Shown piece after piece: positions 569-9,403 of a stretch of 24,891 bases of DNA. How positions within the stretch are numbered: position 1 is the stretch's first letter; every line of letters starts with the position of its first letter. Below the pieces are notes generated by a model. It saw only the letters and a list, made by a program, of their open reading frames with translations. It had not been told where the DNA came from and ran no database searches. Source of the DNA: a virus; IMG/VR virus record IMGVR_UViG_3300042691_019438, positions 1-24,891 of that record. One strand, 5' to 3'. The position numbers and the translations under genes were made by a program.

Positions 569-1738
569 TCAGTCCTTGTATGGATCAACTTCGCCAGCGC
601 CGGCCATCGCCACGCCGATTGGCCTGAGCGTATGCAGGATGGCAATTGTGTCGCCGTGATGGCCCAGCACTTCCGGCAGTCGCTTGTAGGCACCGGGAGC
701 CTCGTCGGCACCGCCGCCACGCAACTCTACGCCTTGCTCCCTCAACCTGTCTGTAGCTGCCTTCCAGTCGATCTTCGGCTCTCGCACGCAGACGCCGTTC
801 TTCCACTTGCCTTTCGCTTCCATGCGGCCCATCACGCGGCCAGCCCCGTGAACGGTTGAGAAGAATGAGTTCCGCGACCGCTCGCCGTCTCGCCCCTCCA
901 CGATCACTGCGTCGTCCCCCATGCTGCCGCCGATGAATCCCTGCTGGCCCGGAAACGCAGGCGTCGCCCCCTTCCGAGTGACGAGCCACTCTTCGCCGAA
1001 GTGCTGCTCCTTCCACGCGAAGTTGTGGTGGTTGTGGACTTCCTTTTCGGCCTTCGCCCCAAGGATGGCAAGGACGCGGGCGACAACCCACTCCCGGCCG
1101 GCGTAGGCATACTCGCCCGCCACCTCCATCGCAGACAGGTACTCGGCGGCCAGCGGTGTGCCGAGAGGTATAGAGGCCGGGATCGCGTCCATCGAATCGT
1201 CCTTGCTTCCTGCCTGCTCAAGGAAGTAAGTCGCGGTCTTGTGCCCAAAGCCGCGAGAGCCGAAATGAACTCCGACCCACAGCCGCCCATCGGCCCGGTC
1301 TTCAAACAGGTCAACGTAGTGGTTGCCGCTCCCGACCGTCCCAAGCTGATTCTTCGCCAATTGCAGAAGGGATCGCTGAAACGGCGATGGGCTGTTTGCA
1401 ATCCGATCAAAGACATGGTGGTCGGCGACCGGCTCGTTGTTGGCCCTGCCGACGCCAAACGAAATCTTGGCGACGACTTCATCCATCACAGCCGAAACAT
1501 CTACGTCCTTCGCGAGAAGGTCCGTCTGGGCCGCAAGGTTGCCGCAGGCGATGTCATAGCCGACGCCGGCTGGCATGACGTGCGTTCGGCTTGCTACCAC
1601 ACCTCCGATGGGCATGCCGTATCCCTTGTGGTGGTCGGCGCAGAGAACGCCGCGAGACCCACCACCAGACACAGACAGGCATCGGTCCAACTGCTGAATC
1701 GAAGCATCTTCAGCGGGGCCAAAAACTACGACCGCCAT
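569..1738 (-). CDS. rtcB: RtcB-type RNA-splicing ligase
   Basis: RtcB proteins join RNA 2',3'-cyclic phosphate or 3'-phosphate ends to 5'-OH ends in a GTP- and Mn-dependent reaction through a guanylylated histidine. The 389-residue product is close to the usual bacterial length of about 400. Visible family motifs, in order: GVGYDIACGN with D62 and the metal-type C65; GSGNH at 136-140; HFGSRGFGH at 158-166; HNHHNF at 235-240; RKGATPAFPGQQG at 255-267; GGSMG; and HGAGR at 297-301, where H297 matches the nucleophile. The C-terminal DEAPGAYKRLPEVL block is also typical. The ATG at 1738 has AAGGA 9 nt upstream and a hairpin in its leader. In a phage, a likely role is repairing RNAs cut by host defence nucleases; that role is inference. 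Confidence 0.95.
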   Translation of the reverse strand: MAVVVFGPAEDASIQQLDRCLSVSGGGSRGVLCADHHKGYGMPIGGVVASRTHVMPAGVGYDIACGNLAAQTDLLAKDVDVSAVMDEVVAKISFGVGRANNEPVADHHVFDRIANSPSPFQRSLLQLAKNQLGTVGSGNHYVDLFEDRADGRLWVGVHFGSRGFGHKTATYFLEQAGSKDDSMDAIPASIPLGTPLAAEYLSAMEVAGEYAYAGREWVVARVLAILGAKAEKEVHNHHNFAWKEQHFGEEWLVTRKGATPAFPGQQGFIGGSMGDDAVIVEGRDGERSRNSFFSTVHGAGRVMGRMEAKGKWKNGVCVREPKIDWKAATDRLREQGVELRGGGADEAPGAYKRLPEVLGHHGDTIAILHTLRPIGVAMAGAGEVDPYKD

Positions 1739-5862: not shown

Positions 5863-6180
5863 TCAGGGCTTCTTGGGGGACAGGGCGGCCAGCTTCTTTT
5901 CCAGCATGGAAACCCGCTCGGAAAGGATGGCCACAGCCGGATCCTTGGCCCGATGCTCCCACAGGCCGTACCGCTTCCATTCGGGGAACTCATTGACCCC
6001 CTCGTCCGTCACATGGTGGACGGAGGGCTTCACCACCACCCCCAGCTCGCCGGCCATGGCAAACAGCGTCAGGGTGCGAGAACCGGCCTTGCAGACAATC
6101 GCAGGGCATGGGTCGGCATTCTCATGGGCATAGAACAGCACAATCTCACCGACATCAGCCTTGGGCATCTCGTAGCTCAT
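5863..6180 (-). CDS. Small protein between terminase and portal, 105 aa
   Basis: I chose the ATG at 6180-6178 because it overlaps the terminase TGA (ATGA); the longer open frame upstream lies inside terminase coding sequence. The product begins MSYEMPKADVGEIVLFYAHENADP, has a beta-type core (PAIVCKAGSRTLTLFAMAG), a WKRYGLWEH motif, and ends in a predicted coiled coil (AVAILSERVSMLEKKLAAL). The family is not recognised. A beta domain plus C-terminal coiled coil between terminase and portal might suit a packaging or head-decoration partner; this is inference. Confidence 0.75.
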   Translation of the reverse strand: MSYEMPKADVGEIVLFYAHENADPCPAIVCKAGSRTLTLFAMAGELGVVVKPSVHHVTDEGVNEFPEWKRYGLWEHRAKDPAVAILSERVSMLEKKLAALSPKKP

Positions 6181-8735
6181 CGCTTTATCTTTCCAGTGGG
6201 GGACAAAAATATGCACGGATCTTCGGACGTTCGCTCTCTCGCCAATCGGTCGGCTCGCCACTTCACCCACCACGGCTCCTTGCCTGGGCGGTTGGGCGGC
6301 TTGTGGTACTTGGGCTCATGGGCACAGGCGTACTCCAAACATTGGGCCGCATGGACTTCACCTCGCGTCTGCGGCTCGTCAGTCACGTACACCTGTCCGT
6401 TGACTGTGGTCGTTTTCTTGCGATACCGCTTCAGCTCGCGGACGAGGTTCGGGCACGCACCCTCCAAGATTTTGAGCTTGGTGGTCCCGTCTCCACGCAC
6501 ATGGAGCATCTGTCGGACGAGGGCCGTTCTTGCCGGGATGTCATCTGATCCAGGAATAAACTGATGCCCCGAAATGGCGAATTTGATCTTCCGCTTCTTC
6601 AGCTCTTCGGAATACAGCTCATGCGGCAGCCGACCGGAGCCCAGGTCTCTGAGGGCGCCGCCGTGCATGTCCATGATCGCGGCGTAGATGTACTGATCCT
6701 GGGCCTTCTGCGCGAACTGCTCGCCCCAGATCAACGCATTGCAGTTGCGGATGTATAGCTCGTCGTAGATCAGCAGGAACTTCTCGTCGGGAGGGACTGC
6801 GGCGAATAGGGTGGCCATCACCGCATGCCCAGGGTCAATTGCGACGTACCGCGTCCAGTCTGGCGGAACCTGTCGATCTGGAAGCTGCGAGCGATCCAGC
6901 ATGTGGACCGACGCATTGAACGTCGGGTACATGAGGGTGGATTCGGTGGTGAACTCGCCCTCGGCCCGCATCCGTAGTTCGTCTTGCCCAAGAGCAGACC
7001 AGCGTTCGATGTTCTTCTGTCGCTCTTCGGCATCGATATGGGCGTTGTCCAAGAAGCGAAGGACGAACTTCTTAATGATGGGATTTTTGACTCCCTCCTC
7101 CTCCGCCCGGTCGGCACGCTCGCACAGACCAAGGAGAGCGTCATTCTTGGACCACGGCATGGCAGACCAAACGAAGCGGCCCTTGCGATCTGAGAGCCGG
7201 GCCTGCATTTCGCCCACCCACCGCTCCGACGAAATATCCTCGTCTATGTGGACCAAATCGGCCTGAAAGCCTTGCGGAGGTTCGCCTTCTGAGGAGAAGC
7301 AGTAGATCGTCCATCCGTTCGTCAGCTCGGCCTTGTTCAGATAGCCGGCGTTCTTCTGCACCCAGGAGATGTCTTTGATCATTCTTGGAGGAATGAGCGG
7401 TGGAGCAGGCTTGGATTCTTTGAGGCGGTCGGCGTCCTTCGACGGATTGAAGGCACGCCACTGCTTGGTCTCAGCGTCTTTGATGATGCGGAACGCCCCG
7501 GCCTTAAACAGCATCGGATAGACAACCATTCCGATGTGGGTCCACCCCTTGCCGATGATGACGAGGTTGCCGCCTTCCTTCGGATACTTGTTGTGCGGAT
7601 CTTGTCCCGTAGCAGCGCGAGCATCTTCAATGAACGTGCAGGCACTCTTGCCGCTGTTGTGGTTCGGCAGGCCGGCAATGATGTAGTTGTGCGTGTCCGG
7701 AACCTCAAAGTCCCACACTGAGCCTTGCCCGAGGTGTTTATAGGCGGTAATATACAGATGTTCATTACCACCTTCAGGGGCATCAAATGGGACGGCACAA
7801 CAAGATCGACTGGCCAGTGGAGCAAATGCGGCAGTGGTACGAGGTGGAGCGCAAAACAGTGGCCGAGATAGGGCAACTGCTGGGCCGCAGTGCCAAGGTT
7901 GTGAATAAGGCGTGCAAACGCTACGGCCTTCAGATGCGTCGGCGGGGCCCAAAGGATGGTCCAGAGCATCCATGCTGGAAGGGCGGCCGGGTTCTAGACA
8001 AGGCAGGGTACATACTGCTGCACCAGCCTGAACATCCCGACTCCAATAGTAATGGCTATATCCGCGAGCATCGCTTGGTGGCAGAGAAAATGCTTGGTCG
8101 CCGCCTGCTACCAACTGAGGTTGTTCATCACAGGAATGATGTTCCGGACGACAATAGGCCCGAAAACCTTCAGGTGTTTGACACCAACGGAGATCACCTT
8201 CGGGAGACTCTTGCCGGCAAGTGCCCAAAGTGGACGCCTGAAGGTCGGCAACGCATTCTGGAGTCAGTACGTCGCGGAGGGCGGTCCACTTCCCGTCGCC
8301 GGAAAGAACCAAGTGATTCAGCGTGCAGCGAAGCTCGCCACCATTGCTCAGGACAAACGCATAGAGGGGCTCTATGGCCTTAATGAAAGGCTTGTTGGCC
8401 CGGGACTTGATCCTTTCCCCGCCCCAGAGCGAGTCCACCCAGAAGGGCCCGTCGATCTCGCTCACCTTTTGCTCCACTCGCCGCACCGGATCCCACACCA
8501 CCTGATCGCCGGCCAGACAACGGTTTCCACCGATGACCAGCCGCTCCGATGCCGTGCAGGCGTGGAACTCTTCCTGCCTTGGCATGGGGATCCACAGACG
8601 AAGTGCTTCCAGCCGGCGTTCAGCCAGTTCGGCCTGAACGTCCTTCATCTGCGTCAGGGCGTGCTGTGTCAGCCCGCCAATCGGCGCGTCCGGCTTAGGC
8701 GGAGGCGGTATCTTCGGATGCTTTCGCACGCTCAT
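6177..8735 (-). CDS. terL: Terminase large subunit interrupted by an intein
   Basis: This is the ATPase and nuclease motor that packages phage DNA. The 852-residue precursor contains a 288-residue intein at residues 73-360, so the mature protein would be 564 residues. The joined exteins rebuild a Walker A (GGNR, then SGKS). Walker B is seen as LVHIDED at 494-500, and the RNase H-like nuclease as YVAIDPGH at 630-637 with IMDMHGG at 687-693. The ATG at 8735 lies within the preceding small zinc-finger gene (41-nt overlap) and has only a weak SD. The stop overlaps the start of the 105-residue gene. Loss of splicing would destroy the ATP site, so the intein should be active. Confidence 0.95.
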   Translation of the reverse strand: MSVRKHPKIPPPPKPDAPIGGLTQHALTQMKDVQAELAERRLEALRLWIPMPRQEEFHACTASERLVIGGNRCLAGDQVVWDPVRRVEQKVSEIDGPFWVDSLWGGERIKSRANKPFIKAIEPLYAFVLSNGGELRCTLNHLVLSGDGKWTALRDVLTPECVADLQASTLGTCRQESPEGDLRWCQTPEGFRAYCRPEHHSCDEQPQLVAGGDQAFSLPPSDARGYSHYYWSRDVQAGAAVCTLPCLEPGRPSSMDALDHPLGPADASEGRSVCTPYSQPWHCGPAVALSRPLFCAPPRTTAAFAPLASRSCCAVPFDAPEGGNEHLYITAYKHLGQGSVWDFEVPDTHNYIIAGLPNHNSGKSACTFIEDARAATGQDPHNKYPKEGGNLVIIGKGWTHIGMVVYPMLFKAGAFRIIKDAETKQWRAFNPSKDADRLKESKPAPPLIPPRMIKDISWVQKNAGYLNKAELTNGWTIYCFSSEGEPPQGFQADLVHIDEDISSERWVGEMQARLSDRKGRFVWSAMPWSKNDALLGLCERADRAEEEGVKNPIIKKFVLRFLDNAHIDAEERQKNIERWSALGQDELRMRAEGEFTTESTLMYPTFNASVHMLDRSQLPDRQVPPDWTRYVAIDPGHAVMATLFAAVPPDEKFLLIYDELYIRNCNALIWGEQFAQKAQDQYIYAAIMDMHGGALRDLGSGRLPHELYSEELKKRKIKFAISGHQFIPGSDDIPARTALVRQMLHVRGDGTTKLKILEGACPNLVRELKRYRKKTTTVNGQVYVTDEPQTRGEVHAAQCLEYACAHEPKYHKPPNRPGKEPWWVKWRADRLARERTSEDPCIFLSPTGKIKR
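7725..7753 (+). promoter_or_regulatory. Candidate promoter for the antisense HNH gene
   Basis: On the plus strand TTGCCC (7725-7730) and TAATAT (7748-7753) are separated by exactly 17 nt and lie 33 nt before the HNH start codon. Each hexamer matches the sigma-70 consensus at four of six positions. The site lies inside the codons for the C-terminal splicing blocks of the intein on the other strand. Moderate-quality prediction; host sigma specificity is unknown. Confidence 0.4.
7787..8383 (+). CDS. HNH homing endonuclease, encoded antisense within the terminase intein
   Basis: The 198-residue protein has an N-terminal helix-turn-helix-like segment (VEQMRQWYEVERKTVAEIGQ and following, about 11-47) and a clear HNH nuclease domain: YIREHRLVAEKMLGRRLL with H95, EVVHHRND with H114/H115, DNRPENLQVF with N123 and N127, and NGDH with H137. 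A typical LAGKCPKWTPEGRQRILESVR tail follows. The SD is AGGGG, 6 nt before the ATG. The last 35 or so residues run antisense to intein block B and look non-homologous, so the functional protein may once have ended near residue 163. The enzyme probably cuts intein-free terminase genes to spread the intein; this role is inferred from HNH homing enzymes generally. Confidence 0.9.
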   Translation: MGRHNKIDWPVEQMRQWYEVERKTVAEIGQLLGRSAKVVNKACKRYGLQMRRRGPKDGPEHPCWKGGRVLDKAGYILLHQPEHPDSNSNGYIREHRLVAEKMLGRRLLPTEVVHHRNDVPDDNRPENLQVFDTNGDHLRETLAGKCPKWTPEGRQRILESVRRGGRSTSRRRKEPSDSACSEARHHCSGQTHRGALWP

Positions 8736-8907
8736 TCATCTGGGATACGGACATGGACTGCCACTCACCGCACCAGTCCTTCCCCTCCGTGATCGGGTGG
8801 GAGTCCTGGCGATCCAGCTGGACGGTCGGCGGATACCGGCGACACAGCCCCTGGATCCTCTTGGAGATCGGCTCCCACCAACGGCAGGTTCGGCACACTC
8901 TGTCCAT
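8695..8907 (-). CDS. Small putative zinc-binding protein upstream of terminase, 70 aa
   Basis: The ATG at 8907-8905 has GAGG 6-7 nt upstream; a TTG at 8919 is possible but less likely. The protein starts MDRVCRTCRWWEP and has the Cys pattern CRTC, then LCRRYPP, then HPITEGKDWCGEWQ, a four-cysteine (plus His) arrangement that looks like a small zinc-binding protein. It overlaps the preceding 212-residue gene by 143 nt in another frame and the terminase start by 41 nt, so it is well embedded in the packaging operon. Its function is unknown; a small packaging or DNA-binding role is possible. Confidence 0.75.
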   Translation of the reverse strand: MDRVCRTCRWWEPISKRIQGLCRRYPPTVQLDRQDSHPITEGKDWCGEWQSMSVSQMNERAKASEDTASA

Positions 8908-9403
8908 CGACAACCTCAACTTTCTGCATAGACATGGCCGCCTCCAGCACTTGGCGTCGGAGTTCGGCCTCTAGTTCTTCTTCGCTCATCAGTTCCAGCG
9001 GCTTCTTCGCCCCGCCCATCGCGGTGTTCCCCACCACCAGTCGCATGAGCGAATCCAGCATCTTGGTGCGAAACGCCCCTCCGGCAGGCGAGTCGTAGTA
9101 CTGCTTCATGAATACGTTCGCGTACCCACGCACCCCACCGAAGTACTCCATCACCACCTCCAGCAGTTCGGAGGAGTGAGGGATGTTCGCCCCACCAAGA
9201 CGAGCCGAGGAGATGAACAGATCGACTGCCCCGCGTTCGATCTCCTCCAGCTTCTTGTTCGTCTTCTTCTTGCGGGCCGTCCGCTCTTTCTTGTTGCGGC
9301 ACTTCCGGCAACGGGCGTGGAAGCCATCCTTGGACTTGTGGAAGAACTGCGTGGTGGCCGGGAGCGATGCCCCGCAGCCTATGCACACCTTCAGGTCGGA
9401 CAC
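8765..9403 (-). CDS. Zinc-ribbon protein, possible small terminase or packaging accessory, 212 aa
   Basis: The N-terminus has a CxxC...CxxC zinc ribbon (CIGCGASLPATTQFF...CRKCRNKK, about 7-36), followed by a strongly basic stretch (KKERTARKKKTNKKLEEIERG) and a helical body (LLEVVMEYFGGVRGYANVFMKQYY; RTKMLDSLMRLVVGN; MSEEELEAELRRQVLEAAMSMQKVEVVD). The zinc ribbon plus helical oligomer-like region just before terL would fit a small-terminase-like DNA recognition protein, but the family is not recognised. The last 45 or so residues (SVPNLPLVGADLQEDPGAVSPV onward) are read out of frame over the 70-residue gene and look like non-conserved run-on. The start at 9403 overlaps the glycosyltransferase stop by 13 nt. 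Confidence 0.75.
   Translation of the reverse strand: MSDLKVCIGCGASLPATTQFFHKSKDGFHARCRKCRNKKERTARKKKTNKKLEEIERGAVDLFISSARLGGANIPHSSELLEVVMEYFGGVRGYANVFMKQYYDSPAGGAFRTKMLDSLMRLVVGNTAMGGAKKPLELMSEEELEAELRRQVLEAAMSMQKVEVVDGQSVPNLPLVGADLQEDPGAVSPVSADRPAGSPGLPPDHGGEGLVR

Follow-up and report, generated by a model that had tools for sequence, protein, structure and literature searches.

The window, a stretch of 24,891 nucleotides of viral DNA (IMG/VR record IMGVR_UViG_3300042691_019438), carries on its minus strand an open reading frame (6177..8735, 852 aa) that matches the terminase large subunit (terL, PHROG E 2.1e-10) and is colinear with intein-less terL, with up to 84% identity. The Walker A motif of this precursor is split by an intein (7656..8519, minus strand) of 288 residues, which runs from Cys1 to Asn288 (precursor residues 73-360), with the junctions ...RLVIGGNR/CLAGDQ...GLPNHN/SGKSACT... 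(slashes mark the predicted splice sites). The C-terminal end of the N-extein (8520..8735, minus strand) was placed by alignment with the empty site, and the C-extein (6177..7655, minus strand) starts with the SGKS of Walker A and contains the nuclease domain further downstream. Relatives have the exact empty site (GGNR.SGKS), so that the insertion is precise and in frame and the extein can be restored, giving a predicted 564 aa once spliced. As terL is one contiguous ORF and not two, a fractured gene with a split intein was ruled out. The gene adjoining terL (8765-9403, minus strand), in a position that would suit a small terminase subunit, resembles endonuclease VII at its N-terminus (PHROG E 2.9e-8); an RtcB-like RNA ligase gene is found at 569-1738 (minus strand; PHROG tRNA splicing ligase, E 1.3e-68).

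Intein blocks A, B, F and G are all present, with Cys1, a TxxH motif in block B (TLNH, 8313-8324, minus strand, intein 66-69), VWDFEV in block F, the penultimate His and terminal Asn (His287-Asn288) and Ser at position +1, and the residues C1, H69, D270, V273, H287 and N288 are invariant across 46 inteins. This bears out the claim of the initial annotation that a splicing-competent intein interrupts the terminase P-loop, splicing itself being inferred. The single sequence of the window remains below the Pfam Intein_splicing threshold (E 9.6e-4); the family profile matches intein structures (E 3e-19). In the predicted model of the sense intein, the ends are confident and pLDDT drops below 50 at residues 127-210 and 228-251; its best Foldseek match is the NpuDnaB intein (E 2.5e-6), and all 17 matches with E up to 0.001 are inteins, consistent with a HINT fold. 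The N-terminal splicing part (8268..8519, minus strand, intein 1-84, blocks A and B) is under sense-frame constraint and is modelled with pLDDT >90, and the C-terminal splicing part (7656..7799, minus strand, intein 241-288) holds blocks F and G. Between them lies a sense linker (7800..8267, minus strand, intein 85-240), which is open, unconserved in protein sequence, largely predicted to be disordered and deletable, in that a natural allele of a related intein does without it. The sense frame thus has no endonuclease domain between blocks B and F, as had been proposed, and the intein does not qualify as a canonical large intein.

In that place, on the plus strand, lies an HNH_3 homing-endonuclease gene (7787..8383, 198 aa; Pfam HNH_3 E 6.5e-9, PHROG HNH E 3.5e-29), whose product has N-terminal HTH-like helices, an HNH core and a C-terminal tail that overlaps intein block B. 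A complete antisense gene with a Shine-Dalgarno sequence had been described here; the gene stands, while the Shine-Dalgarno-like AGGGG (7776-7780, plus strand, 6 nt 5′ of the ATG) is weak in the window and stronger in close relatives, which have AGGAG or AAGGAG at the same start, and 7787 is the start used by the family. Matches of at least 5 nt to the anti-Shine-Dalgarno complement precede 34 of 71 nested genes, compared to about 12 in shuffles. The promoter scan recognised no promoter for the HNH gene. The HNH model had no significant solved relative by Foldseek, only insignificant HTH matches, and a profile search with the HNH protein reached I-HmuI (1u3e) at E 0.23 only. In all 55 aligned members the HNH motif residues are intact (H95, H114, H115, N123, N127 and H137 being invariant), as expected of an HNH_3 domain, so that a frameshifted or inactive HNH across relatives, which would have refuted the initial annotation, was not encountered.

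The recurrence of this arrangement was examined among viral contigs, which were searched with the HNH protein alone and then with an HNH alignment; the best 80 of 491 relatives were kept, ranked by HNH similarity alone and not picked for an open opposite frame. In each of these 80 loci, the HNH gene lies antisense inside a long opposite-strand ORF. The ORFs whose translations were inspected contain intein blocks and terminase features, and all ten of those tested match terminase families. Not all loci were checked by eye, and the test for the C-terminal intein motif was automatic; it was passed by 68 of 76 non-redundant places, all in one constant register, and it missed L016, L149 and L153, whose translations look like inteins, while rejecting free-standing copies. 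A search with the splicing domain returned 80 loci, comprising 50 inteins with the antisense HNH, 29 mini-inteins of 130-148 aa, one truncated case and no sense endonuclease at the site, the other result that would have refuted the initial annotation. The insertion site is mostly Walker A, even among terminases with exteins down to 14% identity, and prophage-like MAG contigs (L180-L182) are also carriers. Outside terminases, an antisense-HNH intein occurs in Walker A of a strawberry-notch-like helicase of Polaromonas sp. CG9_12 (L184:3-8324) and, on a virus contig, in a primase-helicase resembling DnaG/Toprim/MCM (L240:2285-5983). We rejected L010, L118 and L126 as broken HNH genes, since these genes just stop earlier; a partial, decayed HNH copy was seen only in L252.

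Two further observations concern the relatives. Free-standing HNH homologues occur 3′ of terL (L005:2429-2920, L047:7232-7600, L056:5009-5428, L070 and L073), in most cases beside a terL without an intein, and could possibly be intron-less homing or collaborative homing partners. In L024 (2-3583, plus strand), terL contains a second intein near precursor residue 799 (HAAQ/CFDD...GN/CLEYA), which is conventional and has LAGLIDADG-like motifs in frame; hence, both architectures coexist in one gene.

Natural alleles bear on the mobility of the element. In nearly every 100-nt bin around the site, the terL flanks of L017, with the intein, and of L033, without it, match at 97-100%, and the two differ by the 864-bp intein at the exact splice junction; a similar whole-intein presence and absence is seen for L019 compared to L067 and L065. 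On the extein tree, six presence changes are required, at least four of them on well-supported branches. At the DNA level, the intein of the window shares 90.5% identity with that of L017, where the terL bins are mostly 65-92% identical, and only 69.7% with that of L024, where terL is mostly 79-98% identical. These mismatches imply that inteins have been exchanged between diverged phages. For Pectobacterium phage Ymer and Pseudoalteromonas phage PHS3, the exteins are 14% identical, the splice domain 53% and the HNH 50%. Taken together, the extein tree and the allele pairs fit an HNH-driven spread into empty alleles, as far as can be judged in the absence of cleavage data.

The same alleles could be read differently, with the HNH gene as an independent selfish gene that is harboured silently in mini-inteins, homes into HNH-less inteins and moves the intein only passively. 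Over 6.7 kb, L135 and L201 share 99.5-99.97% identity and differ solely by an in-frame stretch of 522 nt, absent in L201, which corresponds to most of the HNH gene and leaves a mini-intein; whether this reflects gain or loss is unsettled. The 29 mini-inteins without HNH among the 80 splicing-domain relatives and the free-standing homologues beside intein-less terL genes would suit such a gene as well. However, whole inteins are present or absent at the exact splice junction (L017/L033, L019/L067), the register and position are the same throughout, and HNH divergence follows that of the splicing domain after correction for the extein (partial rho 0.54). We therefore regard a merely harboured gene as unlikely, although the HNH could home into mini-inteins instead of carrying the intein into empty terL, since both kinds of pair exist. 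HNH nucleases also often adjoin terminase genes and are able to aid packaging (PMC11855218), so that the gene might be a packaging accessory nuclease of the HK97 gp74 type, embedded near terL by happenstance. This very improbable reading was rejected because the nested HNH is absent from close intein-less relatives (extein identity up to 84%; 97-100% DNA identity for L017/L033), because L201 does without most of it, and because it also occurs in inteins of the strawberry-notch helicase and the primase-helicase.

We then looked for selection on the two frames of the mobile intein. The HNH gene overlaps the intein by 199 codons (intein 46-245), with codon position 1 opposite position 1. The initial annotation had the intein frame open opposite the HNH gene over about 150 codons; the openness was confirmed and the length was not, about 155 of the 199 codons being constrained for HNH. 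Across 68 non-redundant nested HNH genes, the sense frame contains no stops, compared to 314.7 expected when synonymous codons are shuffled within each gene with protein and codon usage unchanged. This set had been pre-filtered for an open ORF with the motif; the unfiltered best 80 HNH loci are also all open. The other two antisense registers of the nested genes contain on average 8.5 and 4.8 stops, free-standing HNH homologues contain 39 stops in the equivalent register compared to 48.8 expected, and GC3 among nested cases goes down to 0.28. For the window alone, the same shuffle gives a probability of 0.06 for zero stops, which cannot reject chance openness, so that the evidence for the open frame comes from the family. 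A codon-position profile was made from 18 close relatives of identical intein length, leaving out L125 and L137, whose equal length is coincidental. The highest variability falls on sense position 3 in intein 1-84 and 241-288, and on HNH position 3 (equivalent to sense position 2) in intein 96-245 (0.436 vs. 0.142 and 0.121). This implies that the splicing domain is constrained on one strand and the endonuclease on the other, the linker being mainly kept open, in agreement with the confident ends and low-pLDDT middle of the sense model. Judged from these codon patterns, both frames are maintained by selection.

These patterns also bear on the readings in which the HNH protein matters little. 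The geometry permits an antisense transcript that mainly regulates terL as an antisense RNA, the protein being secondary, yet the substitutions follow HNH codons and all 55 aligned members retain the HNH motif residues unchanged; as an RNA role needs neither, we rejected this scarcely credible reading. That the overlap is merely a GC-rich antisense ORF or a passive one with an unconstrained sense frame, as the window alone would allow, is contradicted by the stop counts in the 68 cases at GC3 down to 0.28, in the other registers and in the free-standing control, as well as by the HNH-frame constraint, and can be dismissed as next to impossible.

Carriers among cultured phages were found in nine records, namely Pseudoalteromonas phage PHS3, seven Pectobacterium phages and Dickeya phage Setonix. 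The sequences of Ymer, Sabo and PHS3 were inspected throughout; for the others, the assignment depends on the HNH match. In PHS3, terL is annotated as truncated, beside an 'HNH endonuclease'; the Ymer terL is labelled 'hypothetical protein', and the annotation table of Ymer lists no other large terminase subunit. Viable phages with terL broken in Walker A imply splicing, which remains an inference. The HNH gene of Ymer is on the same strand as the replication genes; an annotated LAGLIDADG homing endonuclease is found beside a helicase gene in the same phage (L102:30024-30875).

In summary, the locus is very probably a mobile terminase Walker A intein, with a homing endonuclease gene placed in reverse orientation in the slot between blocks B and F, opposite an unstructured linker; splicing, cleavage and early expression are inferred. 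The central proposal of the initial annotation, a separate opposite-strand endonuclease gene in the usual slot, gains support from its recurrence, from selection at the codon level, from pairs with and without the element and from cultured phages. Sequence comparison alone establishes the two-strand architecture, its recurrence, the selection on both frames, the empty sites, the horizontal exchange and the HNH-deleted alleles. Translation of the late terL message would run through without a break, with the middle of the intein yielding a meaningless, probably unstructured linker, and the flanking HINT domain would excise itself and restore TerL, as inferred from the sequence, the predicted fold and essentiality. 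The opposite strand would yield the HTH-HNH_3 protein, which may nick or cut the intein-less Walker A DNA of a co-infecting phage and thereby cause both intein and HNH to be copied into the empty terL as one unit. Protein splicing, DNA cleavage, the target site and a separate timing of the two products are all inferred, and nicking instead of full cleavage is possible for HNH enzymes of the HTH-HNH_3 kind. Early expression, as the initial annotation proposed, could plausibly explain the reverse-strand placement, in the absence of a recognised promoter and of expression data. More broadly, we consider it likely that a reverse-strand endonuclease defines a second, widespread type of mobile intein, found across many diverged terminases as well as two or more other P-loop enzymes. 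Production of the endonuclease would there be independent of the host protein, and selection would keep open a sense frame that is otherwise meaningless and lies opposite a functional gene.

The searchable literature, which did not cover a 2025 preprint (bioRxiv 10.1101/2025.01.02.630785), yielded no account of inteins with an antisense endonuclease gene. Cited by the authors of PMC11855218, this preprint is, by its title, on actinobacteriophage inteins with 'non-canonical architecture'; it possibly covers overlapping frames in phage inteins and represents a risk of prior art. The arrangement contradicts the textbook rule that the endonuclease of an intein belongs to the precursor, and illustrates how endonuclease and host protein could be produced at different times and levels. 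As a natural example of long dual coding in sense and antisense, with selection quantified on each strand, it is unusually clean, and the gain, loss and exchange of inteins can be tested with it in cultured phages (Pseudoalteromonas PHS3 and the Pectobacterium Ymer group). Annotators currently overlook it, as the terL entries of PHS3 and Ymer illustrate.

The endonuclease of inteins is usually in frame and part of the precursor protein. Canonical large inteins (mostly LAGLIDADG, such as the second intein of L024) share with the window the HINT domain, the endonuclease position between blocks B and F, the precise insertion in a conserved motif and the mobile distribution, whereas the endonuclease of the window is a separate protein from the opposite strand and its sense frame is a disordered linker. 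Fractured genes, reportedly described by Dassa et al. in 2009, are said to have split inteins with a free endonuclease gene between the halves, and so also place a separate endonuclease gene at the endonuclease position of the intein; in the window, however, host gene and intein form a contiguous precursor that is translated through the reverse-strand gene. In nuclear rDNA group I introns, endonuclease genes on the complementary strand are known, likewise inside a splicing element, but these RNA introns need no translation, whereas the antisense region of the window must stay open as sense coding. The nearest published relatives in the searchable literature are the ShiLan-type 'hidden HNH' insertions in phage DNA methylases, in which the HNH gene lies wholly inside the insertion in a different frame, apparently of the same strand, and in which no splicing domain was identified (PMC11855218). 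A methylase ORF of Cylindrospermopsis phage Cr-LKS3 (L276:1956-3806, OM373202.1), with a related HNH in another frame of the same strand, is such a ShiLan-like hidden HNH in a cyanophage. Like these, the window has an HNH gene that overlaps an open host frame and a mobile distribution; unlike them, its HNH gene is antisense and lies within a real intein, and with an opposite-strand HNH and a splicing domain it is not a member of the ShiLan type.
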